Shown here: positions 13,101-47,306 of the stretch, one piece after another
Numbering within the stretch: the first letter of the stretch is position 1
Layout: each line of letters begins with the position of its first letter
Source: Onthophagus taurus
Taxonomy: Eukaryota > Arthropoda > Insecta > Coleoptera > Scarabaeidae
Direction of reading: 5' to 3'
DNA length: 64,000 nt
NCBI RefSeq assembly: GCF_036711975.1
Contig: NC_091970.1
Location: forward strand, 11,353,501-11,417,500
The notes under the pieces: model-generated
What the model saw: the letters and a program-made list of their open reading frames with translations, nothing else
What the model was told of the DNA's origin: nothing
Databases searched by the model: none
Made by a program: the position numbers and the translations under genes

Positions 13101-14915
13101 ATTAAAGTTTTTCAAAGCAATAAGTAGTCTTGGAAGCAGTATTCCGCCTGTCCAAGTAGGTCAAAACCTTTAAGAACAGTGTTTGACGTTCTGGAAGCAA
13201 TAGGTAGTATTTTAAAAACAGCATCTAATCTTTTCCAAGTAAGTTGTGGTCTTTTTCTGTAATATCTAGCATTTTAGAAGCAGTAGATAACTTTTTGAAA
13301 TAGTATTTCCTCTTTCCAAGCAGTTTTTAGTCTTTTGCTAACAGTATCTAGCTTTCTACAAGCAATTAGTAGTCTTTCCAACAATATTTAGCATTCTGAA
13401 AATAGTTAATAGTCTTTTGGAAACAGTATTTTGTTTTTCCAATCAGTTTTTAATTGTTTTGGAAAGCATATCTCATCTTTCCAAGTAGTTATTAGTCTTT
13501 TCCGGCAGTATCTAACATTCTAGAAACAGTAGGTAGCCTTTTGTAAGTTGTGGTCTTTTTCTACAACATCTACCATTTTAGAAGCAGTAGGCAACTTTAG
13601 CAATAATTAGTCTTTTGCCAACACGATGTTTCTTGAATTATATCAAACATAATAAGAATAAAATCCTTTAAATCCATATTCATGCCTTTTCTGGATTCAT
13701 TTGTGAATTTTTATTAATCCAACCCCATCACCACAGGGCAAAGTAATAGCAAAATAGCAACAGATAATGAGTTACTGGAATAATACTGTTAACAAAGAGA
13801 CTGGAGAAGAAGAACTAATGCTCATCAATTAACCTCAAAGTTAATTTTTTTTTTCTATTTTTAGAGTAATAATCGATATTTTACGTTTTGCTTCAAAATC
13901 GTGTATTGTAAAGCGCCAATTACGCCAAGCTGAATTGTTAATAAAACAAGCGATGAGTTTATCGAGTAAAATGTTTGAAATCGATGGTCATCCTCGTCAC
14001 TCCGACGTCCTAATGGACTACGGTTTTTATTTATTAAACTCTGATTGTATAACAGCGAGTGTAACTCATTATCGTAAAGCGTTAAACATTAGAAAAGAAA
14101 TCTTTGAAAAAAACAATATTTTAGTAGCAATAGCTTACGATGATTTATCTTACGCCCAATACGTTTACGAATACAGCTCTGGAAACTTTTACAACCCCCG
14201 AGATAACGTTGAAAGAGCAATTCGAATCATGGAAAAATTATTACCAAACGATCACATCTTGTTGGCTTCAGCCAAAAAGGTGAAAGCGTTAATTTTAGAG
14301 GAGATTGCGTTGGATATGCGACAATCAAACAGTTACGGACATCAAAGGGAATATTTAGCCGAAGCCGAAGAATTACATAAATCGGCGTTAGAAATTTGGC
14401 AAAAATCTTTCGGTGAATACAACGTTCAAACTGCTAAACATTACGGGAATTTAGGCCGATTGTATCAAACGATGATGTTATTTCAAGAAGCCGAAGAAAT
14501 GCATTTAAAAGCGATCGAAATTAAAGAGAAATTATTAGGTCCGGATGATTTCGAGGTCGGTTTAAGCATCGGTCATTTAGCTTCGTTATATAATTATCAC
14601 ATGAAACGATATTCCGATGCGGAAAAATTATATTTACGTTCGATAAATATTAGTTTGAATTTATTTGGGCCAACTTATTCGGGTTTAGAATACGATTATA
14701 GAGGAATTATACACGTTTATACAGAACTAGAAGACTACGATAATATGGCGAAATATTCGGCGTTGATGTTGAGGTGGAGCGAGTATCGAAAGGATGGAGA
14801 AATAATTAGTTATCCCGATGTACCTGATGAACTGGATGATTTGATAAAGGGTTTCTTTAATTTGGAAATTGAACATTCTGAGGAAAAAAACGAAATAAGA
14901 TTAAATCTTAATTAA
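4017..14915 (+). CDS. APPBP2: APPBP2 homologue (TPR-repeat protein), complete, four coding exons
   Basis: Joins 4017-4148, 4207-4574, 4631-4852 and 13865-14915. All donors are GT and acceptors AG, and the phases (0, 2, 2) fit. The product is 590 aa, close to the roughly 585 aa of vertebrate APPBP2. The C-terminal 350 residues are the most conserved: LMDYGFYLLN, AKHYGNLGRLYQ, EAEEMHLKAIEIKEKLLG, LSIGHLASLYNY, YSDAEKLYLRSI and GLEYDYRG all fall in tetratricopeptide repeats. In animals the protein binds the basolateral sorting signal of APP and microtubules, and is a substrate receptor (KLHDC-like module) for Cullin-2 ubiquitin ligase; that role is family knowledge. The N-terminal third is less conserved but colinear. 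Intron 3 is 9.0 kb and consists almost wholly of tandem repeats plus one Tc1 element, while introns 1 and 2 are 58 and 56 bp. Confidence 0.95.
4207..4574 (+). CDS. APPBP2: APPBP2 exon 2
   Basis: Follows a T-rich tract ending TTTAAG. Encodes MFVEKRLCILVNEF through LLLNCLY and ends in phase 2 (AT) before GTAAAAAT. It matches the region of APPBP2 that in vertebrates begins YQQGRLCQLGSEF. Confidence 0.85.
4631..4852 (+). CDS. APPBP2: APPBP2 exon 3
   Basis: Acceptor TTTTTTGTAG at 4621-4630. Encodes RLYVESYYSLTNTQ through AVQNLNKDVPKR, with the TPR-like stretch AGMYGVFAAMYFQKSEYDQA. Ends in phase 2 (CG) before GTAAATAT. No single ATG-initiated frame reveals this exon; it was found from homology and splice signals. 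Confidence 0.88.
5285..7745. repeat. Satellite array 2, about 175-bp monomer, about 14 copies, in APPBP2 intron 3
   Basis: Monomers carry AATCGGAGCTTGCTATAAGA, TTGTTAACAATATTGCTCTC and ACGTCAATATCGAGATAGAT. The marker ATCGGAGC recurs at 5720, 5901, 6076 and 6251, giving 175-181 bp. The copy at 5545 is shortened to 162 bp by loss of the GGTAACACTTG segment. The sequence is unrelated to satellite 1 although the period is nearly the same. Confidence 0.93.
7746..8239. other. Unique spacer within APPBP2 intron 3
   Basis: About 500 bp between two unrelated arrays. It shows short local motifs (ATCGGTAG repeated near 7960-8030) but no gene or recognisable transposon. Confidence 0.4.
10682..12195 (-). 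mobile_element. Tc1-family DNA transposon, 1514 bp, with 29-bp inverted ends and TA duplication
   Basis: Left end 10682-10710 starts CAGTCAGTTCC and ends CATCGTACACCA. Right end 12167-12195 is its near-exact reverse complement. TA flanks both sides (10680-10681 and 12196-12197). Repeat units of the minisatellite continue on each side, so the element jumped into the array. The left end carries a tandem copy of TCGTACACCA. It encodes a decayed transposase on the minus strand. Confidence 0.93.
11070..11945 (-). pseudogene. Tc1 transposase, frameshifted
   Basis: Read on the minus strand from about 11942. The start has MPPRRTEIGVEVRNIVIKLH and GRSIRQIAKKLN (paired-like helix-turn-helix). It continues with VRRVLRSAGRVPRKKPY, WKRVMFTDESKY (first catalytic Asp), a glycine-rich MLWGSMAASGVG block, WIFQQDQDRKHTAH (second Asp, in place of the usual QQDND) and SPDISPIEHLW (catalytic Glu). 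Frame changes occur near 11850, 11380 and 11150 and stops are scattered, so it is inactive. The order of motifs is that of DD34E Tc1 transposases. Confidence 0.85.
13621..13864. other. 3' end of APPBP2 intron 3
   Basis: Unique AT-rich sequence ending in the polypyrimidine tract TTTTTTTTTCTATTTTTAG. No other feature seen. Confidence 0.5.
13865..14915 (+). CDS. APPBP2: APPBP2 terminal exon
   Basis: Acceptor CTATTTTTAG at 13855-13864. The 350 codons begin VIIDILRFASKSCIVKRQLRQAE, about 23 codons before the first internal Met at 13935, and stop at TAA 14913-14915. It contains all the well conserved TPR units. An ATTAAA at 15010 is a possible polyadenylation signal. Confidence 0.93.
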
Positions 14916-22745: not shown

Positions 22746-23567
22746 ATTTAATGACTTAGTTTAAAGATTTTGCCTTAATGTAAAACGATGGAATGAATTC
22801 AGAATTTGTTGCCAAGCAGCTTTTATGCAAATTTAGTTTTACCTGTTGCATTTTAAAACAAATTCAACCAATTAAGCGATATTCTGAAAATGCCGACATA
22901 AGCAGTTCCACAAACTCTTGCTTTTATGCGTTATTCTATTATCAAATTGACAAAGGCGGAGGAATGTCGGAACCTTTTAGACCTCTTTCCAAAGGTATTG
23001 AGCCAGGTCACTCGATGTACCTCTTCTGGATTTTTTTTAAAATTCATAAGTTTTATTTGTTCTTGCTAGATTATAAACGTTTCTTTTTGATTTTTTTCAA
23101 AAGATGTTTTGCCGTTGTATTGGCAAAACCACACAGTAAAATTTTTTAATTTTTTTTTTGAGTTATTTTATTTTCATCCATAGATTCAGATTTTGCAATC
23201 AAAAACATAGGGTGCCACTTAAAAAATTGATCGTAACCTTCAAATGATCTTGAAAATAAGGTCAAGGTCAAGAAATGTTATCGTCATATATATATCGTTT
23301 TATGTAAAATGGACCATCCTATATGTCGAATTGTAATCCAATGTCACCGACAATGTACAAGATATTAATTCACGGAGCAGTCATAGTAAAAAATGCATTA
23401 CTTGATCAGTAGGTCAAATATCTGAGAAAGCAGCAGAAGCGCGCAATAAGTATTTCAGGACATATCGCCAAGACTTTTCAAGAAAATTTTGTCCTGTAAT
23501 AGAGATATATTCAACCGACTTCTCTTGAGCTCAGATCCCTTATTCAGTAGCATGAGGATCAATATTG
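22746..23567. other. AT-rich region with no gene assigned
   Basis: Contains an 118-codon open stretch at 22793-23149 that I do not recognise and consider chance, and CAAGGTCAAG motifs near 23262. Possibly the remainder of a mariner-type element; no paired ends were found. Confidence 0.3.
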
Positions 23568-24297
23568 TTACCACCCCCGAGCGTGAGGTGGTAAGAGGCC
23601 CCCGAGTATATTCTCGGAGAAGGGTATTCTCCTCGGGTCCACTCTTTATAGGAGCCTCGTAACGTGGTTAAGTGTGTCAAAAGACAAGGGGGAAAGGATC
23701 AAGCGGCGGATGTCAATAAAAACAAAATACAAAAGATCAATAAAAACTTTGAATTAATTAATGAGATACTTTAATTTAATTTCTTTTAAACACAAATCAA
23801 ATAAACAAAAAAAAACAGTAAATATTTCTATCTCGTACTCACATAATGGTTTTTGGGTTGATTGACACCTTTTTCGTCTGCTTTCTTCTCTTATTTTTTC
23901 TCTTTTAATTTCTTTTAGTCTTTTTCCACTTTTCACTCCCACACTTTACCCATGCCTCTACTCTAACTCTCGACCACACTCTCTCTAACTTCTTCCGTCT
24001 GCCTGCTCTTTTCGCGAGTCCCTCATCCGTTGTCCCCACTCCCAAAATATTTCTGTACTTCCCCGAATTAAATATAGATATCTTTTCTGACTTGTTACAA
24101 TATGCTTCTATCAACACAACCAAACCTAATGGTTTTTCTAAAAATTTTGGCCGCGTAGAATGCTCTAATACCCGTATGTGCGAAACAAATTGTTTCAGAT
24201 ACGAATTAATCATCTTACACCTGAACCGAGTCCAAAATCCCTGAATGCAAGACTCAATTCCTGTAGTAGTCGTAGTGGTGGCGTAGCGAATATAACT
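23568..24297 (+). mobile_element. Possible solo LTR with primer-site-like sequence (low confidence)
   Basis: The block starts TGTTACCACCCCCGAGCG and ends ATATAACT, giving short inverted ends. It is followed by TGGCGTCCTGAGCACGACAC, which resembles a gypsy primer-binding site and leader. Composition is unlike the surroundings (C/T-rich middle, 23880-24010). No gag or pol and no second LTR are in the window, and I found no clear 4-6 bp target duplication. Confidence 0.33.
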
Positions 24298-26065
24298 GGC
24301 GTCCTGAGCACGACACTGTATTGGGGACCCCACCAGAAAAGATATAATATACAGAATTTATTTCAAAAAAATGTTAATATATACAGGGTGTCTCATGTAA
24401 CTGGTTCGTTAGAACTTTTTTAGGTTCCAGTATTCGTACAGTTTTGAAATTTTGGTAGTATGGGTTGTTCAGCCGGAACTTTCGATTTAAAATATTTTCA
24501 AGATGGCTGCCACTTACGGTCTACCAGAAGTAGACTATAACTTCGTTATTTTAAATGGAATGCTGTAGTTTTAATTGCACTTTTTAATTATACGTAAAAA
24601 AATATATTGACTTTCATAAAAGTTATTGGTACCTAGCGTTTTTCGTTTTCGAGTTATTTTGATTTTAAGGTTTTTCTGGCAAATTTCACCATGCTCTTTA
24701 AAAGCCCATATCTCAGTTAACGTTCATTCAAAAAAGCTCTAAATTGGCACGATTACTCTTCAGATGCTCTCAAATAGATTGTCATATATTGCGTCAGAGT
24801 ATCTTACACAGAGTGGTCAAAAATTGAATTACCGTTTCTCCATATTCAATGGGGAGAAAGTCGAAAATTTTAAATGGAACGCCCCATATTTTATTAGCCT
24901 ACACGAAAGGGAATTTAATTATCTACAATTTATCTATAAACATTCCTATACTTATTTATTGTAGTTTCTCTCATATTCGTAAATTTATCAAAACATGTAG
25001 AAAATGCAGGAAACCGTTTGTATTTTTATTAGAAGGCCATGACAGTTTTGTTTAATTTATTTCTATTATTAGTTGTATTATTAACTACGATAATCTTTTA
25101 GTTTACTAGCTTTTACTCACCAAAAATAACAAACACAAGATCAAATAAATGAAACTATTAAAACAAAAAGTTAATGACAAAAATTAGATTTGAATAAAAA
25201 TATAAATTTGTTATAAAATTGAATTTGGAAATGCAATAAAATACGATAAAATATTTATTTCGTTGTCTTCATCACTAGTGACCGGAAATATGCGATGTCT
25301 TTTGGTCTCGATATATCCAGAACTAATAAATTCTTTATCAATTTTTTGAAATTTTTCCTCGTGATGGGCGTTAGGTTTGTTGGGCATCTCTCATTAAGTA
25401 TTCGACACGTCCTGTCCAAAAGTTTATTACATTCGCCATCAATACAAAATAAATTTCAAATATCGCCGTTGGAATAATTTTACCATGATGTTCAATGACT
25501 TACACCAGTCGTCAAATGTAACTAATGGCAACAATAATACAAATATGGACCTATGGCTTTCTAATAAAAAAATCTGCATTTCGTGCATGTTTTAATAAAT
25601 TTCGCAATATGAGGCAAACTACAATAAATAGGTATGGGAATGTTTATAGGTAATTTGTAGAGAATTAAATTCTCTTCCTGATAGGCTAAAAATATATGGG
25701 GCGTTCCATTTAAAATTTTCGACTTTCTCGCCATTGAATATGGAGAAATAGTAATTCAATTTTTGACCATCCTGTATAAGATACTCCGATACAACAAATG
25801 ACAATCTATTTGACAACATTTGAAGAGTAATCGTGCCAAAGTAGATCTTTTTTGAATGAACTTTGGCTGAGATATGGAGTTTTAAAGAGCATGTTGAAAT
25901 TTACCAAACAAAGTTTAAAACCAAAATAACTTTTATCAAAGTCAACCTATTTTTTTACGTACAATTAAACGGTGTAATAAAAAGTATAGCATTCCATTTA
26001 AAATAACGAACTTATGGTCTATTTCCGGTAGACCGGAAGTGGCGGCCATCTTGAAAATATTTTAA

Positions 26066-26758
26066 ATGATGGATTCACAAAGTGCTTTTAATAGACTCCT
26101 GGCATTGGAGGAAAGTTTTAGAAGGAAGTTTGAAGATTTCAATAAGCGACTTCAGATGGCGAATGAGGAGAAACAGGGACCAACCCCGGATAGTCTCATG
26201 AGGTTGAAATCTACTTTCAGGGAGGTCAATAAACGTTTGGATGGTTTGGAGACTTACTCGCGCCGCAACTGTCTGTTGTTTCATGGGATTCCCGAGCATG
26301 AGAATGAAGATACAATGAGTGTAGTCGAAGATGCAATTAAGAAGTTGAACATCAATAATTTTAAATACAATTCGGCGATGATTGATCGCTGCCATCGATT
26401 GGGTAGAATGAAGAAGGGAAACAGTAAATCAGCTGAATCATCGAATCGTCCTATTATTGTTAAATTTACGACATATAATTATAGAGCCGAAATATGGAGA
26501 AACAAACGAAAATATAAGGGTACGGGGATCTTATTAACAGAATCCCTTACGAAACCACGGCTCGAAGTTTATAAGAATGCAAAGGATTATTTCGGAGCCG
26601 AAAACTGCTGGACCGAGGATTTACGCATCAGGATTCTTCTTCCAAATGGAACAAAGCTAACTGTTATCCATCAAGAAGAACTATTGGAAGCGAAGGAAAA
26701 GCACCAACCACAACCCAAGGAGGTGCCTCGAGTTAGAAGACGAGTGCGTCATATATAA
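26066..26758 (+). CDS. Element B ORF1 (RNA-binding chaperone-type protein)
   Basis: A 230-codon open frame. Residues 5-60 are charged and heptad-like (coiled coil: LLALEESFRRKFEDFNKRLQ). Then come RLDGLETYSRRNCLLFHGIP, DRCHRLGRMKK and RPIIVKFTTYNYRAEIWRNK, typical of Transposase_22/RRM-type ORF1 proteins that bind the element RNA. The tail is basic (RVRRRVRHI). The first ATG (26066) uses two bases of element A; the second ATG (26069) is wholly in B, so the native start may be that one or may have been lost upstream. Confidence 0.8.
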   Translation: MMDSQSAFNRLLALEESFRRKFEDFNKRLQMANEEKQGPTPDSLMRLKSTFREVNKRLDGLETYSRRNCLLFHGIPEHENEDTMSVVEDAIKKLNINNFKYNSAMIDRCHRLGRMKKGNSKSAESSNRPIIVKFTTYNYRAEIWRNKRKYKGTGILLTESLTKPRLEVYKNAKDYFGAENCWTEDLRIRILLPNGTKLTVIHQEELLEAKEKHQPQPKEVPRVRRRVRHI

Positions 26759-26851
26759 GGCCTAGAAGTCGTCACCAATTTCCATGGCTGTTTCCATTCT
26801 ACTTCCTAAGTATTAAGTATTTTGTTTTATTTTTTTTGTTTTATATATATA

Positions 26852-28190
26852 CAGGGTGATTCATAAGTAATGGGCCAAATTGTAAATGTACGTTCAGGAG
26901 ACCAAAATAATAATATTTTCATTAACAATAATGGGTCTTAGTCTGCTCCTTACTGAGATACAGGATGTTAAAGCGAAAAAAATAAAATAGATTTTTGTTA
27001 ATAGATCAGCTACTTTTCTACATAATGACTCATAGTTGACTTATAGTTTTTGTAAGGGTAAACAATAATGTGTGAGAGGATTTGAGTTAACTCGTAGATG
27101 TCGCCACATGCGCCATATGAATTATGAAACGTCAATGAGCTTTTACGTTTAATGAATAGTTTAAAACATTTTATTGTTAAGTAAACTGATTCATTCTTGT
27201 CCTAACATAAATCAAAATGCCGAGACATAATCACTTTTCAAACGAAGAAATGAGAGACATGTTATGCGTTTACGCACAAGAACGTTTTTCTGGGCAAGCA
27301 GCATCCAGAAAATATCGTGAAATGTACCCTTACAGAAGGCAGCCAAACCGGAAGATATTTCAAAATATTTATAATCGATTGGGTGAAACAGGTTCATTTC
27401 GTCCAAAATATCATACAGGACGTCCTAAGATTATCACTCCGCAGCAAGAAGATGAAATTTTGGTAAGAATTGCGCAAAATTCTGAAATAAGCACTCGTCG
27501 ATTGTCTGCAGCAACTGGAATAAGCCAACCATCCGTGACTAGAATTTTACACAAGGAAAATTTATATCCCTATCATTTTATACCTGTGCAAAATTTACTT
27601 CCAACAGATTATCGAATCAGAGTTCAATAAATTGTTTTATTACGTAATTTTTTTATGGTTTCAGTTTAATATTGTTGTCAATTATCAATTACGGTTAGGT
27701 AAATGTCAACATTCCATGCCATGCTTGTGTCTTAACAGATTAATGCTACGTCGACCACCGTCAAATGTAGTGTAGTGAATTAGTAAAATTCAAATATCTC
27801 GAAAATCGTTAATATTTTCAAGATCAAAGAAGTATAGCTTTTTTCTACAGAAATGATGGGGCTATCCAAATTAAACAAGTATGTTGTAAAATAATGAGCG
27901 ATAAAAAATTTGTAGCTGATTTCATCTAATTCATATGGCGACATCTACGAGTTAACTCAAATCCTCTCACACATTATTGTTTACCCTTACAAAAACTATA
28001 AGTCAACTATGAGTCATTATGTAGAAAAGTAGCTGATCTATTAACAAAAATCTATTTTATTTTTTTCGCTTTAACATCCTGTATCTCAGTAAGGAGCAGA
28101 CTAAGACCCATTATTGTTAATGAAAATATTATTATTTTGGTCTCCTGAACGTACATTTACAATTTGGCCCATTACTTATGAATCACCCTG
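26852..28190 (+). mobile_element. Element C: mariner-related element with about 270-bp inverted ends, inside B
   Basis: Starts CAGGGTGATTCATAAGTAAT at 26852 and ends with its reverse complement at 28190. TA duplicated at 26850-26851 and 28191-28192. Arms of about 270 bp are nearly identical; the left carries a few extra bases near 27110. It sits in the spacer between ORF1 and ORF2 of B. The interior encodes only a truncated transposase. Confidence 0.93.
27217..27630 (+). pseudogene. Element C transposase, DNA-binding half only
   Basis: The 137 codons start MPRHNHFSNEEMRDMLCVYA, a DUF4817-type N-terminus. KYHTGRPKIITPQQEDEILV and RRLSAATGISQPSVTRILHK give a second helix-turn-helix. The frame ends soon after, at YHFIPVQNLLPTDYRI, where full-length relatives continue into the DDD/DDE catalytic domain. 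No catalytic motif follows before the right arm, so C has an internal deletion and cannot transpose by itself. Whether the DNA-binding half is still made is unknown. Confidence 0.75.
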
Positions 28191-28460
28191 TATATAAATT
28201 TTTATTTTCTCCTTTGATATTTCGTCTGACATCCATTCTTAAGTTTGTTTTTTTTTATTATGTATTTTTCTCTTTTTTCTCGGTTCAGGCGCGTGTAGGG
28301 AGCATCTGTTGGGGGGCGCTCGGCGCTTGATGTATATACATATATTTGTATTATATACATATATTGTTTTTTTTCTCTTTCTTTTCTTTTTTCTTGGTTT
28401 TTCTCTGTTTTTCTCTTTTTTCTTTCTTCGTTTCTCTTTTTTGCAGGAGTTTCTGCGTAA

Positions 28461-29297
28461 TTGCTGCGGACTGTGCAGATGTTTAGCATCGGTCATCTAA
28501 ATATTAGATCTTTGCTTAAATCTTTTAATGATTTTGAAGGTGTGTTGGCTGACGGTGGCTATCATGTGTTTGCATTGGGCGAGACTTGGCTGTCTGCTGG
28601 AATCGATAATAATGCAATATCTGTGAACGGATATAAGGTGCTTCGAAAGGATAGAGAGACTAGAGCGGGGGGCATTGCGTTGTATATAAGGGAAGGAGTA
28701 ACAGTTACCACAGTCGATGTGAGTGATGCAATAGAGCAGCTGTGGGTCAAGATACGACTGGACGGATTGAGTCTTGCCTTGGCGGTTGTGTACAGACCCC
28801 CGTTAGTCAATTATAATTTGTTCCTCAATGAATTAGAGGACGCGCTTTCGATTATATTGCCTACGGTGGACAGGGTGGTGATTCTTGGGGATTTTAATAT
28901 CGACATGTTGACCGTGACCACCCGTAAGTCCCTAGCGCTACAAGATTTGCTTGATTCTACGGGCTTGTATCAAGTCATTGAGGGACCAACACGAGTAACC
29001 CAATCATCGTCTACTTTGATTGATCTGATACTGGTATCTGACCGCAGCATGGTCAGTGAGGTGGGTGTCGCAGACGGGGGAAGTATGTCAGATCATGATA
29101 TAATATACTGCAATCTAAAATTTAAAACCCCACCACATCCGCCTCTAATTAGAACCTTTCGCTCTTTCAAATATTTTCAATACGATCACTTCGCTGATGA
29201 TCTGTATAGAATACCATTTTTTCACATTTTTGATATTCCCGACGGGGACTCTAAGGTAAATTTTTTCAATAACGCCCTATGTAGTGTTCTAAAGGTA
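28461..29297 (+). pseudogene. Element B ORF2, part 1: apurinic-type endonuclease
   Basis: Open from the ATG at 28461 (an in-frame ATG at 28479 gives MFSIGHLNIRSLL). Endonuclease motifs in order are GHLNIRSLL, ALGETWL, AGGIALYIREG, AVVYRPP, VILGDFNID, STLIDLILV and MSDHDIIYC, with the catalytic E, D, N and H all present. The reading frame is continuous up to the TA at 29296-29297 where element D entered. Confidence 0.87.
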
Positions 29298-29939
29298 CAG
29301 GGTGTCCCAATTTCGATGTCCGCATAGGCTATCTCCGAAACTAAAAGAGATAGAAAAAAAGTAGCTTACATGTCATGATCTCGTTTTTCGAGAAAATGCT
29401 AATGCCGAAAACTGCGAACAGCTATCGTCTTTTGTTTTCGCCCTAGCGGCAAAAATTGAAAATTTTGCGAAAACGGCATTCGCGAATATCTCACTTATTA
29501 TCAAAGATGGAGTATTATAAATAAAACATTATATGGGCAACTTTTTACGAAGAATTCAGTGGCGTAGGTAGAATTTTTTTCCCATCTTTTATTTTCGAGA
29601 TTTTAGACGTAACTTTATTTTTTTAAATGGAAACCATAGTTGGCTATGACCTAAAATAATTTGTAATTTTCTTCTGATAACAAATATATATAGTTTGTGG
29701 GGTATATTTCTTATAATTATTGAATAATTAACAAAAATTCATTTTGTCCTATCTAAAACTAATGTATGTGTTTAAAAGTTAATGTTGCTATGGTGATAAC
29801 CATACATACATACTATGATAGAATATAATGTATCAATTTTTTTTGTTCTTTCTGAAACTATTGTATGTATTTAAAACTTAACTGTTGTTATGGTGATAAC
29901 CATACCATGATGGAAAACATTGTTTCCAATTATTGTCAA

Positions 29940-30717
29940 AGTTTGTAGTAGTATTTAAAAATTCAGTAACGACTCTGGCATTATGTCCTGGTGCTCCGTC
30001 ATATTGAAAATATATCATTAAACTAAAATTAGAACTAAAACTAGAACTAACACTAGACACGGGTTTTGCCGTGCGTCTTTTAATAAAAGGTTTGACGTTT
30101 CGGATGCCATGTTGCAACCTTCTTCAGAAGCTGGTTCGAAGTGAAATGAAAATATATCATTTGAAACATATTTAATGGCAAATTGTCGACCAATGTGCTC
30201 AATGTGCTGCCTTAATATATTGAGATATTTACCATAGTTTAAGTTTTTATGGTAGATACTATATGCCAAAATTCTATTATCTAAAAGAGCACACCATACA
30301 TTGAATCCTAATCTTCTTTGAACACTCAGAGACTTCATCGGTCCAGATGACATTTTGAACAAACAGCAGATTATTTAATTTTTCTAAATATCATCTACAA
30401 AATTCTAATCTTAGATTGACGGCACGTAAATAATGAGTTAGCCCCGCTTTGTATGGTTTATACATATTTTTCTTTCATATTCGGAAGCAGCGGTTTTTGG
30501 GTCAGACGTCTTGTTCAATTTCTCTGCAAGATGTTGATGGATTTATCGCAACTGAAGCCAACACATTGACTTCATCTTCTTGCAGGTCATTTTGGTATGT
30601 TTTGCACGTGCTTTCCGGATACCTTGTGAAATATAATTCCGCGGCTAACGTCGCATTCTTATCTGATAACATATAGCATTCCATCATGTTACATTTTTCA
30701 TAATTTTCGAAGTTCAT
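29940..30717 (-). pseudogene. Element D transposase (DUF4817 mariner type), fragmented
   Basis: Minus strand from 30717: MNFENYEKCNMMECYMLSDK and ELYFTRYPESTCKTYQ (DUF4817-type helix-turn-helix), then DEVNVLASVAINPSTSCREI (second helix-turn-helix). A frame change near 30380 leads to WTDE (first acidic residue). LGFNVWCALLDNRILAYSIY and YFQYDGAPGHNARVVTEFLN (second Asp) follow, split by insert F. The C-terminus runs into the inverted arm and is lost. Confidence 0.75.
30020..30146. mobile_element. Element F: 127-bp insertion with 15-bp target duplication
   Basis: Flanked by the exact 15-bp repeat TGAAAATATATCATT at 30005-30019 and 30147-30161. One end is a TAGAACTAAAACTAG-type simple repeat. 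The other holds, on the minus strand, CTGAAGAAGG, a hairpin GGTTGC/GCATCC with loop AACATG, then GAAAC. It interrupts the element D transposase. It may be a SINE or a terminal fragment of a Penelope-like element; the family is not certain. Confidence 0.75.
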
Positions 30718-31367
30718 TGTAAAGTTTTATTCAGTTTTGTTATACTTTGACACTTAACATGCTGGTGCTTCGTACCAGCACATAATACCAGAGTTATTAT
30801 CGAATTTTTAAATACAAACTTAAGCAATTATTTGATACATTATGTGCCATCATAGTATGTATGGTTATCACCATAGCAACATAATTTTTAAATACATACA
30901 TTACTTTTAGATAGAACAAAATGAATTTTTGTTAATTATTTAATAACTATAAGAAATATACCCGACAAACTATATATATTTGTTATCAGAAGAAAATAAC
31001 AAATTATTTTAGATCATAGCCAACTATGGTTTCCATTTAAAAAAATAAAGTTACATCTAAAATCTCGAAAGTAAAAGATGGGAAAAAAATTCTACCTACG
31101 GCACTGAATTCTTCGTAAAAAGTTGCCCATATAATGTTTTATTTATAATACTCCATCTTTGATAATAAGTGAGATATTCGCGATTATCGTTTTCGCATAA
31201 TTTTCAGTTTTTGCCGATAGGGCGAAAACAAAAGACGATAGCTGTTCGGAGTTTTCGGCATTAGCATTTTCTCGAAAAACGAGATCATGACATGTAAGCT
31301 ACTTTTTTTCTATCTCTTTTAGTTTCGGAGATAGCCTATGCGGACATCGAAATTGGGACACCCTGTA

Positions 31368-32456
31368 CATTGTCCACTGAAAACCTGCAGTTTTGTAAGA
31401 CCTCAGTCCCCATGGATCACTGATACAATCAAGTCTATGCAAAAAATTCGGGACAGGGCATATCGGGAATTTAAAGCAACAAAGCTACCGCAGAAATGGA
31501 CCTTTTATAAAACAATGAGACGAATTGTTACGGAAGCTATCCGTACAGAGCGCAGAGTATATCTTGAACTTCAAATTAAAAGCGCGAATAATAAATGGAC
31601 AGCATTGAGAAAAGCGGGTTTGTTTAATAAGAAGCAAATTTCAGTACCGGGGCACCGTAAAAATCTAAACCAGTTGAATGCGCACTTTGTCGGCGTGGGT
31701 ATATCGGGGTATGATGCTGACCTTTACAATTATTATCTTAATAATACACTATATAGCCAGGTTTTTGAATTTGCTGAAATTGCTGAAGCCAATGTTGAGG
31801 AAACTATTAACGCAATAAACAGTAATGCTATGGGCTATGACAGCTTAAATATAAAAATTATTAAATTGTGTTGCCCCCATATTATACCATATGTTAGGCA
31901 TATTGTAATTCATGTCATAGAGACTAGTTCCTTCCCGGCTTCGTGGAAAATATCGTTGCTAAACCCTCTCCCTAAAATTAATAATCCTCAAAGGCTGTCT
32001 GACTTAAGACTAATAAGCATATTGCCGGTTCTCTCAAAGGTCATGGAGAAGATTTTATTTGAACAACTTAGCAAATATATTGTAAACAACAGCATTCTGC
32101 CGGACCGACAATCTGGTTTTCGCCCTGGTTTCAGTTGCGCGACCGCGCTGGTTGACGTTGTGGATGACATTGTGGGAGCGATGGATAGCGATAAAATTAC
32201 CGTTCTTTGTCTGCTTGATTACTCGAAGGCCTTCGACACTTTGAACCATAAAATCTTGCTGTCCAAACTGCACCATATAGGGTTAAAGTACAAGGCAGTT
32301 AATTTACTGGGGAGTTTTTTGGATAATAGGGTGCAACGTGTGAGTGTGGATGGTCGGGTGTCGGAGGCAATGACGGTATCGACAGGTGTCCCACAGGGAT
32401 CGGTTCTCTCCCCGCTCCTTTTCTCAATATACACTAGCGATTTTCACAAGCATGTA
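31368..32456 (+). pseudogene. Element B ORF2, part 2: RT fingers and palm
   Basis: Continuous frame with SPWITDTIKSMQKIRDRAYR, LSDLRLISILPVLSKVMEKI, LPDRQSGFRPGFSCATALVD, VLCLLDYSKAFDTLNHKIL (catalytic Asp) and VSTGVPQGSVLSPLLFSIYT. It stops at the TA where the Tigger element E entered, ten codons or fewer before the YADD box. Confidence 0.88.
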
Positions 32457-34938
32457 CAGTAGGGCCCCGACATTCACGACTTCAGCATTCGCGGTTTCGT
32501 GTATTCGCGTTTTAAACTTTGCTACCTTTTTCAACATTCGCGTTTCGATTATTCGCGAATATGTACGCACTTTTTTCTTTATTCAAACGGTGCGCCTGCT
32601 GTACAAGCAACCAGCTTCCCATCACGCACATTTGACAATTTGTTTTGTTACGGTTTACGGGGATTCCCTTAATTTCGATCGATTTTAGTGTTTAGGTTAT
32701 GTGTTTATTTCTGTGATATTTACTTGACTCAGGTTAGTATTTCTTTATTTTTTTTTACTCTATAATTTCTTATATCCGATTAATCTTATAAACTTTTAGA
32801 AACTATTATTCTATTCAACATGGCTACAAAACGACCAGCGAACGAAATAAACTTAATTGCCAAACGCGCAAAGTCAGTTATGACATTAGAAAAAAAGATT
32901 CAAGTTCTTGATATGCTGCGAGAAGGGAAAAAAGCTACCGAAGTGGGCCGTATCTTTAGTGTAAATGAATCAACGATAAGATCTATAAAGAAAAAAGAAA
33001 ATGAAATCAGGAATAGCGTAAAAAGTGGCATCTGTTCATCATTAAAAGTAACATCACAAATTCGTGATATGAATATTGAGAAAATGGAGAAGTCTCTTTA
33101 TATTTGGATTGAAGATAACGGCCGCAGAAATATACCATTAGCCAGAGCTAGATTAATGGATAAAGCCAAGGATCTTTATTGTCATTTTTCGGGTGATATA
33201 AATTATATTGAAGATGACTCTAAATTTAAAGCGAGCAGAGGATGGTTCGAAAGATTTAAATCTCGATTTAATCTTCATAACGTTAAGTTATGTGGAGAAT
33301 CAGCTTCAGCTGATCATCAACAAGCTGCAAAATTTCCTGATGAAATAAGAAAATTAATAGAAGAAAAAGGTTATTGCCCTGAACAAATCTTTAATGCGGA
33401 TGAAACCGGACTTTATTGGAAACAGATGCCAACACGAACATACATTTCAAAAAATGAAAAGACTGCTGCTGGATTTAAATCAGCTAAGGATAGAGTCACA
33501 CTTTTATTGTGTGCAAATTCAAGTGGAGACTTTATTACAAAGCCAATGTTGGTATACCGGGCAGCTAATCCACGTGCTTTAAAGAACAAGGACAAAGATG
33601 CTCTTCCTGTGTATTGGCGAGCTAATGCAAAAGCTTGGATGACTTCTCATATATTTGTTGAATGGTATAAAGAGTGTTTCGTTAAAGAAGTGGAACGTTA
33701 TCTAAAATCTAAAAATTTATCATTCCGTGTTTTATTGATATTGGATAACGCAACATCTCATCCAGTTGATGTTCTCAAGTTAGGTCATCCATGTGTGGAA
33801 GTAGTATTTCTTCCTCCAAATACAACATCCTTGTTACAACCTTTAGACCAAGGTGTTATAAAGGCTTTCAAAAGTCATTACATCAGGCACGCGTTTGGAT
33901 TTGTACACGAGAAATTAGAAAACGACAGTTCCCTTTCAATAAAAGACGTGTGGAAACTATACAATATTGAACATGCTATTATTAATATAAAATGTGCTTT
34001 AAATGACATTAAAATATCGACTGTCAGTAATTCATGGAAAAAATTGTTAAAAAAAGACACCGAAAAATCTTCTGAAGTTGATGAGGCAATAGACAAAGCT
34101 GTGCTCTCTGCACGGTTGCTACCAGGAGACGATTTTCAAAAGGTGGTAGCAGCTGATATAGAATCTCTTGTCAATGAAGAAAACGAAGAGTTATCCAATG
34201 CGGATTTAGAAGCACTCCTGATAGAGAGTGAATCAGGATCGGATGAAGATGAGGTTATTTCTCCTTGTAATAAATTATCGTTGAAAGAACTTAATTCTTT
34301 TATACAAGAAGCAAATCATCTTGCTGAAAAGATCGTAGAAATGGATCCCGTAATGGAAGCATAGAAGCATAAAATTTAAAAATGGGTTAAATACTCTTCT
34401 TGCTTCTTACAAAGAGCTTCAAAAGGATATGCAAAATAAAGCTGTACAACCTACCATACATTCATTTTTCAAACCATCGTGTTCTAAATCAGTGCCTGAA
34501 CATGTTGATGAAAGGTTAAGTTAATTTTTATTTGTTTTTTTTTCTTAGTTTATTTCTTTGATATTTATTTTTGAGTTTATTTTTATTTGTCCGAGTTTAT
34601 TTTTTTAACTTTAAATGATTATTTTACTGTACATATTATATTTGAATACAAATATTGTTGCAGAAAATTTAGTCGTTTTATTTTGAAATATTGTGTGTGT
34701 TTTATTTAACATAACTAATTTTATTAATTTTAAAAATCATACTTATTCAAATTTTTAATTTTGTTACTATTTTTAAATAAAACATCTCTCCATTTGATTT
34801 ATTTCGTCTTCGTTTTACTTTTTAAAATGGCACAGAAGCAGTTTCTCTTTTATAAGATCGAGTGCTTCAACATTCGCGGATTCAACATTCGCGACGTATT
34901 TTCAGAACCTAACCCTCGCGAATGTTGAAGCCTTACTG
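32457..34938 (+). mobile_element. Element E: Tigger/pogo DNA transposon, 2482 bp, inside the B reverse transcriptase
   Basis: Left end CAGTAGGGCCCCGACATTCA, right end its imperfect inverse ending GCCTTACTG. TA duplicated at 32455-32456 and 34939-34940. The ends contain repeated ATTCGCG motifs. One long transposase frame is intact. A likely 5' UTR intron (32733-32799: CAG|GTTAGT to TTTTAG|AAA) precedes the start codon. It is the least decayed DNA transposon in the window and, by position, among the most recent arrivals. Confidence 0.95.
32820..34364 (+). CDS. Tigger transposase (pogo family), 514 aa, C-terminal tail cut off
   Basis: The N-terminal psq/CENP-B-type helix-turn-helix spans about residues 20-65 (MTLEKKIQVLDMLREGKKAT, ESTIRSIKKKE). 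A second, HTH_CENPB region follows at about 85-160 (SLYIWIEDNG, ASRGWFERFKSRFNLHNVKL). The DDE domain has IFNADETGLYWK (D194), VLLILDNATSHP (D309) and LPPNTTSLLQPLDQGVIKAF (D343). An acidic segment (ESESGSDEDE) lies near the end. The frame stops just after VEMDPVMEA. Immediately downstream, in the +1 frame, SIKFKNGLNTLLASYKELQK and QPTIHSFFKP continue the usual Tigger C-terminus, so a small insertion near 34355-34364 truncated it. The catalytic core is complete. Confidence 0.92.
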   Translation: MATKRPANEINLIAKRAKSVMTLEKKIQVLDMLREGKKATEVGRIFSVNESTIRSIKKKENEIRNSVKSGICSSLKVTSQIRDMNIEKMEKSLYIWIEDNGRRNIPLARARLMDKAKDLYCHFSGDINYIEDDSKFKASRGWFERFKSRFNLHNVKLCGESASADHQQAAKFPDEIRKLIEEKGYCPEQIFNADETGLYWKQMPTRTYISKNEKTAAGFKSAKDRVTLLLCANSSGDFITKPMLVYRAANPRALKNKDKDALPVYWRANAKAWMTSHIFVEWYKECFVKEVERYLKSKNLSFRVLLILDNATSHPVDVLKLGHPCVEVVFLPPNTTSLLQPLDQGVIKAFKSHYIRHAFGFVHEKLENDSSLSIKDVWKLYNIEHAIINIKCALNDIKISTVSNSWKKLLKKDTEKSSEVDEAIDKAVLSARLLPGDDFQKVVAADIESLVNEENEELSNADLEALLIESESGSDEDEVISPCNKLSLKELNSFIQEANHLAEKIVEMDPVMEA

Positions 34939-34940
34939 TA

Positions 34941-35813
34941 TCTTTTTGCAATATGCACCAATATGCCGATGACACTCAGCTTTATGGGTCTTTTGGCGAG
35001 GGTGAGGTGGAGGAGGCCTGCAGGCGGATAAGTGCTGACCTAGATAATCTTGTGGATGTGTCTCGTCGTCATAATTTATTAATTAACTCAGCAAAAACCG
35101 ACGTTATTGTTTTTGGCCCGAAAAAACTTAGGGAAAGAATTAAACCCAAACTTGACATACGCATAGGAAACCAACAATTAACGTGCAAAGATTCAGTTAA
35201 AAGTTTGGGAATAATTATTGATGAGAATCTAACTTTCAATGAGTATATTAATAAAAAGATCCGGGCGGCATACTGTCAATTAAAATTCATTTATAACGCG
35301 CGTCATTTTCTAACCGGTAGCAGTAAACGTTTACTTTGTGAGAGCCTGGTGTTATCGGGTTTTAACTATGGGGACATGTTGTACTCCTCGTTTCTATCTA
35401 AACGTATAGCTCAAAAAATACAAAAAGTACAAAATTCATGTCTGCGACTAATTTTTGGTATAAGGCGACGAGAGCACATTAGTCACAAGTTGATTGAAAT
35501 AAGCTGATTAAATATGATCAACCGCAGAAAATTACATTGCGCAACAGCTTATTTCAATATTATAACGACAGGCCTTCGCCGGAAGATACGGTACAGGACG
35601 GACGTGCACACCCTCAATATTAGGTTTAAGGGAACTCTCACACCACCCATTCACAAACGTCAATTTTTTAAAAAATGCTATTCTTACCAAATTTCAAAAC
35701 TGGTTAACGAGATTTCTGGATCTGTAGGACTGTGCACGTCCGTTGCATTACTCGAACGTCGATATAGGGCAGCCTTGTTTTCGGCTCAATGCACCTTTCA
35801 GGGTTACCGATGA
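34941..35813 (+). pseudogene. Element B ORF2, part 3: RT YADD box to C-terminus
   Basis: Resumes in frame after E: QYADDTQLYGSF has YADD at 34962-34973. VKSLGIIIDENLTFNEYINK and SGFNYGDMLYSSFLSKRIAQ form the thumb. A TGA at 35505-35507 interrupts the frame; the same frame continues with MINRRKLHCATAYFNIITTG to the stop at 35811-35813. The TGA is probably a Trp codon mutated by one base, and is the only inactivating point mutation seen in ORF2. Confidence 0.85.
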
Positions 35814-36229
35814 TGTTAATACCTCAGCTCTGCCGTATTTGCGCATAAATTTTCTCTTGTTCGTGTTTTCTTTCTCTTTTCATGTTCTTTTCTGTTTTGT
35901 CTATGTTTATGTTTATTATTTTTAAGGGGGTGATTGTGGAAGAACGATAGGAGACTATCGAACATCACCTTTTGTTCATAAATTTAAATTTAGATATATA
36001 AACTTTTTTGTATTTTCAATACTATGTACCTGTATCGATTTTTGTGAACAATAAACTTGTTTATTATTATTATTATTATTAAATCGAAAGTTCCGAATAA
36101 ACAACCCATGCTACCAAAATTTCAAATCTCTACGAATAGTGGAACCTGAAAAAGTTCTAACGAACCAGTTACGTGAGACACCCTGTATAATGTATATTTA
36201 TTTGATGATATCATAATACATTAATACAA

Positions 36230-37340
36230 ATATCTAATATATTAAGCATATATTTTTCATCAAAGTCAATCATTTCAAACTTTTCTCTCCCCATACTTAA
36301 GAAAGCTAGGTCACTTAGGCGATCTTGTCCCAGCATTGATCTGTAAAAATTAATTAAAGTTCACAGCTAGCAATGGATATTGAAATAGTAAGAAGTATTT
36401 GAACCGCGACTCTCAGGTTTGGAAAAACATCTCCGTCAGAGATTATAAAGGTAAGCAGCTCTAATGGAGTTTTAGATTCAATTTCTTTTCTATTGCAGAG
36501 TAATATTTTGTAGTCACATATTACGACGTAGATTTTTGTTCCATTGATTTCAAAATTCATGTTTTTACAACTCTTTTCAAGATCGTTAACATCATTATCC
36601 TGGTTTAATAAACATTCAACGTCCAATAGAAATCCAAATTTGGAATTAAGTTTATTTAATCGTGTAAATCATGTACTTATTTCTTGTTGCAGACGATCAA
36701 GAACGTTTTTCGTAACGCGAGAAATTTCACCTTCTGCGGAAAGGCCACCATCACTAGCCAATTCTCCCAGCATTTTTCGACGTCTAACACGGATTGTTGT
36801 ATCAATATCCCAGTTTTCACAAACAGACTTTTGCTTAGCTGCGGTAACTCCTACTAAATTTAAAGAATGATTATCACAGTTTACAAATAGTGCTTTATTA
36901 TTTTTTTCTATAATTCTTTATTGGACGCCAGATATATGACCTGACATCACTGCAGCATTATCATAACATTGTGATCTATAATTTGTTAATGAATTTAATT
37001 TTTCTAAAATTTTATTTTCAATTGACGATACATCTTTGGCATGTATTTCAATAAATCACAAAAACGATTCTCTGATGGAAACTTTTCTGTTGGTTAAATC
37101 AATATCTATATACCTAAAGACTTGCGACATTTGTTCTCGATGAGCGATATCAGGAATTGAATCAAATAAAAGTATGAAACAGTTTTCGGCGTTTCCATAA
37201 CATTTTTAAGACGATTTGCTAGTAATAGATTAAACTGATCAACAAGTTAAAGTAAAGATAATAGGTTGCGGACATTTGTACCATCATGAAGGGTTAGACT
37301 TGTGATACAGCGACAGTTCTGTTAGTAATGAATGTGATGG
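36230..37340 (-). pseudogene. hAT transposase relic (ZMYM1/DUF4371 type)
   Basis: The minus strand shows, in order, QSQVFRYIDIDLTNRK-like sequence, CYDNAAVMSGHISG, ALFVNCDNHSLNLVG, DIDTTIRVRRRKMLGELA, LLDVECLLNQDN and VFPNLRVAVQILLTISISIA (the hAT C-terminal dimerisation block), and finally QDRLSDLAFLSMGREK. It has stops (for example near 37057) and frame changes. It abuts the right end of element A. The terminal inverted repeats of the hAT element were not identified. Confidence 0.8.
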
Positions 37341-38559: not shown

Positions 38560-39300
38560 TATCTTCTTCTTAATGCAAAAAGCCGTTTTGAAAAATCACT
38601 TTCAGTTCTTGAGAAATAAATTTTTGAAATCATCGACAATTTTTTCGAATTTTGTAATTTTTGCTGATTAAGATTTAAAAATTCTTATAAAATCTATTTC
38701 CTGGAATACGAGTATGAAAATTTCCTGAAATGTTAATAAAAGTGTCCTCTTTCCAATGAAGCAACACGTTTTTAAAAATAACGTTTAGTTTTTGAGAAAA
38801 CAATATTTAAAGATTTGATAAAATTTTCGATGTTGCAATTTTCATCGATAACTTTCAAAATTCGCTATAAAATTAATTTCTTGAAGGATCCTTGTGGAAA
38901 TATCACCAATTATTAATTATAGTATCCTCTTTTTAATGCAAAAAGCCGTTTTGAAAAATCACTTTTAGTTCTTGAGAAATAAATTTTTAAAGTAATCGAC
39001 AATTTTTTCGAATTTTACAATTTTCGCCGATTAAGTTTTAAAAATTCATATAAAATCCATTTCTTGGAATACGAGTATGAAAATTTCGCAAAGAGTTAAT
39101 AAAAGTGTCCTCTCTCCAATGAACCAACCCGTTTTAAAAAATAACTTTTAGTTTTTGAGAAAAATTTTGATAAAATTTTCGATGTTGCAATTTTCCTCGA
39201 TAATTTTCAAAATTCGCTATAAAATTAATTTCTTGAAGGATCCTTGTGGAAATATCACCAATTATTAATTAAAGTATCCTCTTTTAATGCAAAAAATTTT
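38560..39300. repeat. Satellite 3, block a (357-bp dimer of two diverged 178-bp halves)
   Basis: Alternating halves: one with GAAATAAATTTTTGAAAT and TGGAATACGAGTATGAAAA, the other with AAAATTTTCGATGTTGCAAT and TTGAAGGATCCTTGTGGAAA. The marker CGCTATAAAATTAATTTC recurs at 38868 and 39225, 357 bp apart. It sits directly downstream of the distal copy of the espin terminal exons. Confidence 0.88.
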
Positions 39301-39315
39301 GGTGTTTATATATTA

Positions 39316-39365
39316 TTTATTTTAAAACAAAAAAATTTAATTTCGTATATTGAATTAGATTTATT
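39316..39365 (-). terminator. Candidate poly(A) signals for the distal terminal-exon copy
   Basis: AATAAA on the minus strand at 39365-39360 and 39321-39316, about 170-220 bp after the stop codon. The same arrangement is found after the proximal copy (46828-46823). Confidence 0.4.
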
Positions 39366-39534
39366 TACATAAAACAACGTACAAAGGATTCATTATTTAA
39401 CTAATACAACGATTTCATACTTTACTTTTAAATTGCAGAATAGAATTCCATAAAACCCAAAAGACATTGAAATTATTTCTAAATAAGCATCTTTAAAAAT
39501 TAATATTGCATCAAGTACTTGTAATGGTAATATT

Positions 39535-40769
39535 TTATTCTAACAAATTTAATTTGCTGTTGGTTTTTCTTAATTGTGCCCTCCATGGAATAATATGCGT
39601 TTCATTCGAATCTTCGTTACAATCATAATCATCTTTATCACTATTATTATTATTATTATTACAAATACCATTATTATTTAAATCTTGTTTATTAATTAAA
39701 TCATTTTTCTCATCTGATGCTGTTTTGAGACACTCTTGCATATCATGAACTTTCTTTTCATCCGTAATTTTTGGAGTGTACAAAGTTTGTCTAAAAAATA
39801 AAAGATTTATTATTAAATTTTTATTAAAAAATGATTTAGTACTTCATTCTAATTTCGGCCTCTTCTTTTTTTGCAATTAATTGCCGTTTCCATTGAGGGA
39901 TCATTTGTAAACGTTTCGCTTCCGAATCACGTTGGATTTGATCTTCGAGTTCTTTTCGGGCTTTCTCCGCCGCTTTTTTGGCCAACATTTGGCGTTTCCA
40001 AGCGGGGATAACATTTCCAATTGGATCTTTATCGGGGATCTAAAAAATAAATTTAAATTTTTTGTATTTAATTAATTTTTAAAAATTACTTTTTCAACGA
40101 AATTATTTGCTGTAAATTGTTTGGTCATTTCGGTATAAATTTCCTTTTCAACTTTTTGGTCAACTTTGGCCTTTTCGATCTTCATCTTTTTAATGCCTGT
40201 GATGTCTTTAGACATTTTTAACTCGGCGATTAAATCGGATTTTTGTGCGATATAATTATCGCTTTGTAAGCATTGCAAGCTCATACTTCTTGTTGGTGCT
40301 GAAAACGTTTTTGACGCCACTAATTTATCCGTTCTTCTTAATTGGACCGAGTTTAAATCTTGGATGCTAATCGCGGATAAAGGTTGTTGTTTCTTATTTT
40401 TTTCTGATTCTTTTTGCACCATTTTATCTTTTTCTTTGGTGAAGAAATCGGGGAGAGGCGGAGGTGGGGGTCCTTGATTTTGCACACTAACTTTTTCTGG
40501 CGCAATTTCGACTTTTTTTTCGGCAATTTCGGTTTCTTCATAATCCAAGGAATTTCGCGACGAATTTCTTTTATTGTCGCTTATGCTGCGTAAATATTCG
40601 GAGGGTTTAATTAAGTTGTTTGAATCTGAACTTCCCGGGAAACTCGGCGGAATAAACGGAAGCACTCTTTGCTTGTTAACCAGATGCGCAACCTGGTCCG
40701 AATGGTCACTATCGTTTAAACTAATGATTTTCAAGTCGGAGCAGGATAAATTTAACCGCTTCGCCGACG
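39535..40769 (-). CDS. Duplicate copy of the three terminal espin/forked exons (distal copy)
   Basis: Exons 40769-40090 (680 nt), 40039-39843 (197 nt) and 39790-39535 (256 nt), with the same acceptors, donors and phases as 48285-47606, 47555-47359 and 47306-47042. The proteins are nearly identical: LKIISLND versus [16 protein letters not shown] versus SARNSLDY, and three fewer Asn in the Asn run. It contains the proline stretch [10 protein letters not shown], the WH2-like [20 protein letters not shown] and [20 protein letters not shown]. Because splice sites and frame survive, it may serve as an alternative 3' end of the gene or be a recent non-functional duplicate. There is no fourth upstream exon beside it: similarity ends near 40787. 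Confidence 0.85.
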
Positions 40770-40794
40770 CTGAAAATTAGAAGGAAATAAAGAG

Positions 40795-42236
40795 TAATCT
40801 AATATGTGTAAATGCTATCTGGGTGTTATCTTGGACAAAGGACTAACTTGGACATCACACATTAGTTGCAAAACCAAAAAAGCAACGATTGTACTGACCC
40901 AGTGCCGAAGGGCTATTGGGAATACTTGGGGATTAAATCCGAAAGTTACAATGTGGATCTACACTTCTGTGATAAAACCCATGGTAGCTCACGGAGCCAT
41001 AGTTTGGTGCTCAGCACTAAAACATGCATATAAAGCTACATTGCTGCATCAATTGCAACGACTGGAATCACAGGCGCTATGAGATCTACAACTACGATTG
41101 CAATGGAGACTATGTTAAACGTGCTGCCCCTAGATATTTTTATCAGGGAGGTGGCCGTGATGGCATTGCTTCGGTTGCGATCAGTAAATGAAAAGCAGGT
41201 TGTTAAAATGGGAATAGTCCGGAGCAAGCTCTGGAGTGAGGCTGTTAGTAGACAACCCCTCCTTAAAGCTCGCACAGACTACATTACACCTACTTTCTTA
41301 GGCAAGCCACACTTTGGCATTGAAATGATACCCCAGAGCAACTCAAGCTCGGGCAAAACGCTGACCATCTACACTGATGCATCAAAGAAGGCTGGAGGTT
41401 CCGGAGCGGGAATCTTCTCGCACGATCTCCAGCTGCACCTTTCCACTTCGTTAGGATCGTATTGCACGTCTGCTCAAGCCGAATTAATTGCTATAAACAT
41501 AGCAGCCGATGCGATTATCGACTCCAAAAAAGTCGGCAGAAACGTTGTAATCTGTACTGATAGCAGAAAGGCTATGCTGACGGTTGGCAGGCATCATACT
41601 GCATCATCGTTGGTGAAGTCCTGTCGGCAATCAATCGAAGGAACATGATCATGCGGACAGATTGGCGAAACGGGCGGCTAACAAGTCACCGATTTCCCCT
41701 GAACCGTTTGTACCACTAGCTGTTAATACAGCATCAAAACTGATAAACTCCATCTCCCACCGAGCTTTTTGCGATAGATGGGATGGGACAGCAGTAGGTG
41801 CCTTTGCTAAGAAAACTCTGCTCTACCCTGACCGGAAGACATCTACTCAGTTTCTGGGAAAATCGAAAAGTGACTTGAGGCTTCTCACCCACTTCCTGAC
41901 CGGACACTGCAGGTTACGTAAGCACATGTTTTACATGAAGCTGGCGAATACACCCCTCTGTAGAGGGTGTGAAATGGAAGACGAGACGGTAAGTCATATT
42001 GTTTGTGACTGTCCAAACCTCGTGTACTTAAGGGAATCTATTTTCGGAGTACCATGGCTCCAAATTTCGGATATAAGGAACATACCTTTCTGTTCTATAT
42101 TAACGTTCATGAAAAGATTGGGCTGGTTTTCTGACCCTTGAATGAACAGTAAATTGTGGAGACGTACAAAGGGTCCGCTGGGGCCTAAGTGCTGTGAGTA
42201 TCTCACCCCCACGTGAAACTACATACACATACATGT
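40795..42236 (+). pseudogene. LOA-like non-LTR element, 5'-truncated (RT thumb, RNase H, C-terminal finger)
   Basis: Same family as 15450-19285. CYLGVILDKGLTWTSHIS opens within the RT thumb. After a frameshift near 41075, LTIYTDASKKAGGSGAGIFS, AQAELIAINIAADAI and VVICTDSRKAML give RNase H with QAE and TDS intact. After a deletion near 41650, DHADRLAKRAANKS follows, then PLCRGCEMEDETVSHIVCDC. The 3' end has CTACATACACATACATG near 42236. Truncation at the 5' end lies exactly where similarity between the two espin exon copies stops. Confidence 0.82.
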
Positions 42237-46181: not shown

Positions 46182-46800
46182 CTTTCAAAATTCGCTATAA
46201 AATTAATTTCTTGAAGGATCCTTGTGAATATATCACCAATTATTAATTAAAGTATTCTCTTTTTAATGCAACAAGCCGTTTTGAAAAATAACTTTTAGTT
46301 TTTGAGAAAACAATATTTGATGTTTTGATAAAATTTTCGATGTTGCAATTTTCTTTAATAATTTTTAAAATTGGCTATAAAATTAATTTCTCGAAGGATC
46401 CTTGTGGAAATATCATCAATTATTAATTAAAGTGTCCTCATTTTAATGCAACAACCCGTTTTCAAAGATCGCTTTTAGTTTTTGAGAAATAAATTTTTGA
46501 AATGATCGACAATTTTTTCGAATTTTGCAATTTTTACCGATTAAGTTTTAAAAATTCTTATAAAATCCATTTCTTGGAATACGAGTATGAAAATTTCCCA
46601 AAGTGTTAATAAAAGTGTCGTCTTTCCAATGAACCAACACGTTTTAAAAAATAACTTTTAGTTTTTGAGAAAAATTTTGATAAAATTTTCGATGTTGCAA
46701 TTTTCCTCGATAATTTTCGAAATTCGCTATAAAATTAATTTCTTGAAGGATCCTTGTGGAAATATCACCAATTATTAATTAAAGTATCCTCTTTTAATGC
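46182..46800. repeat. Satellite 3, block c
   Basis: Continuation of satellite 3 downstream of the proximal espin terminal exon, ending with the same TTTAATGCAAAAAA boundary as block a at 39300. The shared boundary shows that satellite and exons were duplicated together. Confidence 0.87.
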
Positions 46801-47041
46801 AAAAAACTTTGTTGTTTATATATTTATTTTAAAACAAAAAAATTTAATTTCGTTTATTGAATTAGATTTATTTACATAAAACAACGTACAAAGGATTCAT
46901 TATTTAACTAATACAACGATTTCATACTTTACTTTTAAAGTGGAGAATAGAATTCCATAAAACCCAAAAGACATTGAAATTATTTCTAAATAAGCATCTT
47001 TAAAAATTAATATTGCATCAAGTACTTATAATGGTAATATT

Positions 47042-47306
47042 TTATTCTAACAAATTTAATTTGCTGTTGGTTTTTCTTAATTGTGCCCTCCATGGAATAA
47101 TATGCGTTTCATTCGAATCTTCGTTACAATCATAATCATCTTTATCACTATTATTATTATTATTATTATTATTATTACAAATACCATTATTATTTAAATC
47201 TTGTTTATTAATTAAATCATTTTTCTCATCTGAAGTTGTTTTAAGACACTCTTGCATATCATGAACTTTCTTTTCATCCGTAATTTTTGGAGTGTACAAA
47301 GTTTGT
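47042..47306 (-). CDS. forked: Espin/forked C-terminal exon (proximal copy)
   Basis: [20 protein letters not shown] through an Asn run of nine and [20 protein letters not shown] to NSKLNLLE and stop. [16 protein letters not shown] is the conserved end of the family. The distal copy has three fewer Asn. Confidence 0.9.

Follow-up and report, generated by a model that had tools for sequence, protein, structure and literature searches.

How did six transposable elements come to lie within one another at a single locus of the Onthophagus taurus genome, and did each of them arrive there on its own? The locus lies within a 64-kb window, the whole stretch of DNA analysed here (genome assembly of 290.8 Mb in 33 contigs), and its elements are denoted A to F (Table 1). 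Element A is split by B, a long interspersed nuclear element (LINE) with two open reading frames (ORFs), B is split by C, D and E, and D carries the short repeat F. This nested stack is real, and its junctions are present in the sequence. Boundaries, target duplications and a D+F composite shared with other places are all observed, as are sites lacking the insert for each of B, C, D, E and F. The proposed succession, with A first, B second and C, D and E thereafter, stands. The stack is very probably the ordinary outcome of successive independent insertions, with D arriving together with F. Loci designated by L numbers are other element copies fetched from the same genome.

Table 1 Elements of the stack, with their positions in the window
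Element	Position	Strand	Description
Z	24278..37173	-	Left-flank matches from 24278, right-flank matches to 37173
A	24384..36185	.	Fold-back element, long inverted arms, TA duplication, split by B
B	26069..36079	+	5'-truncated LINE: ORF1, then ORF2 (endonuclease + reverse transcriptase); TTA-rich tail; split by C, D, E
C	26852..28190	+	Tc1/mariner-like, DUF4817 helix-turn-helix, internally deleted copy
D	29298..31365	-	CAGGGTG-ended, long inverted arms, decayed frame, TA duplication, carries F
F	30020..30146	-	Short repeat inside D, 15-bp duplication, passenger of D
E	32457..34938	+	Tigger (pogo-like), open transposase frame 32820-34361, TA duplication

Sequence inspection found clean ends for all six elements named in the initial annotation, and the boundaries and target duplications described there hold. 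The duplications measured here are TA for A, C, D and E, 5-6 bp for B and 15 bp for F. Element A, the inverted arms of which are 86-92% complementary (computed), is flanked by TA at 24382-24383 on the left and at 36186-36187 on the right. The breaks at C, D, E and F coincide with element ends and the expected duplications, and B breaks off where a LINE is truncated, likewise with a duplication. The flanks of B read TAAAT or TTAAAT, a 5-6 bp duplication whose length is ambiguous against the TTA tail, and one extra G is present at the 5' junction (position 26068). The site of C is a run of TA, and the duplication claimed for this element is evident only through comparison with L022, as the window has 8 TA units and this empty copy 7, the difference that a single TA duplication predicts. 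F is located between perfect 15-bp repeats (30005-30019 and 30147-30161). The junctions are more than chance: where B, C, D, E and F join their hosts in the window, other copies of those hosts continue uninterrupted.

For each insert, we asked whether its flanks lie next to each other in further host copies. The site of B in A is closed in 7/7 other A copies, the arms of which meet without B. Of 16 B loci fetched, 14 were tested; the two left out, L031 and L032, are relatives at 66-70%. Of the two B copies in L019, one is the L020 copy itself. Both sides of the C site are covered in 5/14 loci and closed in 5/5. The D site is covered in 8/14 loci and closed in 8/8, and the E site is covered in 13/14 and closed in 13/13, about 26 bp beside the E site being also missing in L024. 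At the base level, L017 and L022 feature a single TA at both the D and the E sites. The continuous alignment of B, on which the initial annotation had made the stack depend, was obtained with the window unmodified and B unjoined, and the pieces of B adjoin across all three inserts in L017, L022, L023 and L024. The proposed order of A, B and then C, D and E is borne out by these empty sites, and also by private substitutions, which are far fewer in the remaining elements than in A (see below).

The insertion of F after that of D, proposed in the same annotation, holds for the lineage of D, though not for the locus itself, as the D+F composite is found at four places genome-wide. When F and its D flanks were used as a query, the whole query was matched at 4 places including the window (best 40 of 1470 candidates scored), and the remaining scored matches contain F plus at most part of one flank. 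Genome-wide, the D/F junction pattern (up to 3 mismatches) also occurs at 4 places, with 0 occurrences for both reversed controls. F maps to the same D base in L033, L034 and L037, which make up 3/8 of the other D copies fetched, and is absent in the other 5/8, which keep a single copy of the 15-bp repeat. These five empty copies, and the perfect duplication surrounding F, are what would be seen had F entered D here, after D had reached B. This order of events is nonetheless very unlikely, since the same F at the same D base in three other copies argues that D already contained F when it reached B. Moreover, the F of the window is identical to that of L033 and L034 over 151 sites, and these three share a length difference from the F of L037, which is 4 bp longer. 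In a tree of D without F, the window, L033 and L034 are grouped with a support of 0.991 and have 8 sites in common among the close copies, and L037 joins this group weakly (support 0.181). The copies indicate a single entry of F into the D lineage, at another place, and a D that landed in B already carrying it. As a general warning, what a target duplication in a nested element dates is an event in the lineage of that element, not one at the locus, so counting nested layers in a single sequence can give too many local events.

Passengers do occur in this genome, as evidenced by D+F, and by the same token C, D or E might already have been inside the source copy of B. This has very little to recommend it, as no B locus covering the sites (5, 8 and 13 loci, respectively) carries C, D or E, and these loci include the closest sibling, L022, which differs from the window at 0.64% of 4036 sites. 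The least credible explanation is that misassembly produced part of the stack, which was read from assembled sequence; breaks at element ends accompanied by the expected duplications are not what misjoins should yield.

The elements of the stack were also compared by private substitutions, that is, those found in the window copy only, with 7 other loci compared for A, 13 for B, 7 for C, 8 for D and 5 for E. Private substitutions amount to 46/1789 (2.57%; 95% interval 1.88-3.43) in A, a value which is an upper bound, as only 7 other copies were compared and the family has 1691 first-look candidates. The corresponding figures are 12/4091 (0.29%; 0.15-0.51) in B, 4/1344 (0.30%; 0.08-0.76) in C, 5/1919 (0.26%; 0.08-0.61) in D and 3/2479 (0.12%; 0.02-0.35) in E. 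The difference between A and B has a p value of about 2e-14. Judged by this divergence, A seems to be much older than the other elements, and B, C, D and E seem to fall within a comparatively short recent span. Dating C, D and E against one another by private substitutions was tried and rejected, the respective counts (4, 5 and 3) being too small. The initial annotation had seen in the locus a relative clock for six families. Divergence agrees with the order for A versus the rest, but B is inseparable from C, D and E; substitutions resolve this one step only, and six usable steps were not obtained.

A is probably not the bottom of the stack, and may have been inserted in an older, diverged repeat, called Z. 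The left flank of A (from 24278) and its right flank (to 37173) each match diverged genomic places (all 12 and all 14 candidates scored, respectively). Four layers can be counted in agreement with the four nested levels initially described, except that these layers are Z, A, B and C/D/E, with Z resting on modest evidence. Z is perhaps a hAT element. The minus-strand frame 36354-36668 resembles a hAT C-terminus (Dimer_Tnp_hAT, 17.4 bits, E = 0.0038), with a score below the Pfam cut-off of 21.4. The terminal motif of L057 is found at 24276 with 2 mismatches, which is little better than chance, as 4 matches occur in the window against 1.12 expected. A second terminal end and the 8-bp duplication expected of hAT elements were looked for in Z and not found. 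As a separate observation, L056 and L058 carry a different, CAGG-ended insert at the TA-rich spot of Z occupied by A in the window.

The nature of Z is an inference, and so are the mechanisms of transposition, which we deduce from how these element classes are known to behave. With successive insertions, A would have entered Z at a TA; B would then have entered the right arm of A by target-primed reverse transcription; and C, D and E would have moved into TA sites of B by cut-and-paste. Earlier, and elsewhere, F would have inserted into the D lineage, to be carried along with the moving D. Several observations weigh against this succession. B does not differ from C, D and E pooled (12/5742; p = 0.41), so substitutions alone do not place B first, and the value for C is as high as that for B. 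Where C is inserted, the TA run of the empty copy L017 is as long as that of the window, with 8 units. The empty site for A is represented by one copy, L057, in which both A flanks run together and A is absent, the right side matching only about 59 bp. In L053, 47 bp separates the A flanks, and no convincing A left flank was found in L054 and L055. The placement of B before C, D and E rests on nesting, not on substitutions.

The nesting of transposons is a familiar phenomenon, as is its use for dating, and the stack is ordinary in kind and needs no new mechanism. Relative element activity is derived from element-in-element insertions by an established approach (TinT, PMC3014933). TinT is based on a genome-wide frequency matrix, whereas the stack is a single locus, in which D+F shows that an inner insertion can be older than the arrival of its host there. 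Among the literature matches listed for nesting, O. taurus elements and mariner transfer, none was seen to deal with this locus. The stack is a clean worked example, as the same genome offers empty copies against which its junctions can be checked.

The Pfam domains found in B are two, an endonuclease (Exo_endo_phos, 49 bits) and a reverse transcriptase (RVT_1, 84 bits), which identify it as a LINE; the CR1-like label given to it in the initial annotation is a putative one. It shares with non-long terminal repeat (LTR) retrotransposons the endonuclease, the reverse transcriptase, the 5' truncation, the simple-repeat tail and the short duplication. The window copy is truncated at the start of ORF1, and L017, L022 and L024 have in common upstream sequence that is missing from it. 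An in-frame stop is present in ORF2 of the window copy (35505-35507). In L025, encountered incidentally, a B copy lies between A-like pieces (73-87%), an independent nest that agrees with an A-like element followed by B.

C features the TA duplication seen by comparison with L022, inverted ends and a transposase helix-turn-helix, as in Tc1/mariner-like elements. Its inverted arms are 97% matched (computed), and DUF4817 scores 29.4 bits (Pfam cut-off 22.6). The window copy has lost the middle and the right coding part, with the DDE/D catalytic domain deleted, and longer relatives are found in the genome at L041 and L043-L045. CAAT is common to both sides of the break, and the deletion junction was found once genome-wide (up to 3 mismatches). 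In the longer relative L043, the transposase frame is broken in three, and DDE_3 scores 13 bits, below the cut-off of 28.6. The first 784 bp of C, or nearly all of these 784 bp, are matched at about 100% by at least 39 other copies (best 40 of 204 candidates scored), and the C family looks very young by this similarity. Nine DUF4817-bearing Tc1/mariner-like beetle proteins were found, among them proteins of Anoplophora glabripennis (61-63% identical) and Exocentrus adspersus (66% identical). A literature search on DUF4817 transposases returned no paper matching all terms. In L042, also met incidentally, a C copy is located inside a D-family element, an independent nest that agrees with D followed by C.

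E contains an open frame of 514 amino acids with DDE_1 (153.4 bits), HTH_Tnp_Tc5 (43.6 bits) and CENP-B_N (27.3 bits) domains, all above Pfam cut-offs. These transposase domains, the TA duplication and the terminal inverted repeats are those of Tigger/pogo elements. At least 5 other near-identical full-length copies are present in the genome (best 40 of 66 candidates scored), and the transposase is 100% identical to an Onthophagus taurus protein. Among the 120 listed of 1633 protein matches, those of Eptatretus burgeri (55% identical over 67% of the query) and Hemicordylus capensis (52% over the whole query) come closest for other named species. A recent horizontal arrival of E is unsupported, as no other named species exceeds 55% identity among these 120.

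D, a candidate Tc1/mariner-like element, features inverted arms that are 96% matched (computed) and a TA duplication, and its decayed minus-strand frame has no Pfam match either in the window or in L036. On its minus strand, F reads CTGAAGA...GAAAC, which by eye resembles a hammerhead core, a lead not confirmed by Rfam. At the gathering score, Rfam gave no match in the whole window, F included, and a hammerhead was not found in 29950-30220 at E <= 1, leaving F without this mark of Penelope-like elements. The sole Rfam match in that interval is a weak one to the unrelated RF00376 (21.6 bits versus a cut-off of 42), taken as chance, and a ribozyme in F was rejected as a candidate. Penelope-like elements with hammerhead ribozymes exist, according to PMC11167929. 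F, a tentative candidate, differs from them in having no coding part and no Rfam ribozyme match.

Other repeats surround the stack. An LTR-like repeat lies just to its left (23561-24102); no partner of this repeat is listed in the self-comparison of the window, and elsewhere such repeats form same-strand pairs about 10 kb apart. Three tandem arrays, 757-3407, 5323-7753 and 58765-62910, consist of units of 177, 175 and 172 bp, respectively. Two further long arrays, at 8291-13548 and 49973-54537, are built of short units (about 20 and 41 bp) that look alike by eye and are on opposite strands. A direct duplication of about 2 kb (38733-40791 and 46243-48307) is 95.9% identical, and an RNase H domain at 41034-41645 probably belongs to another decayed LINE.
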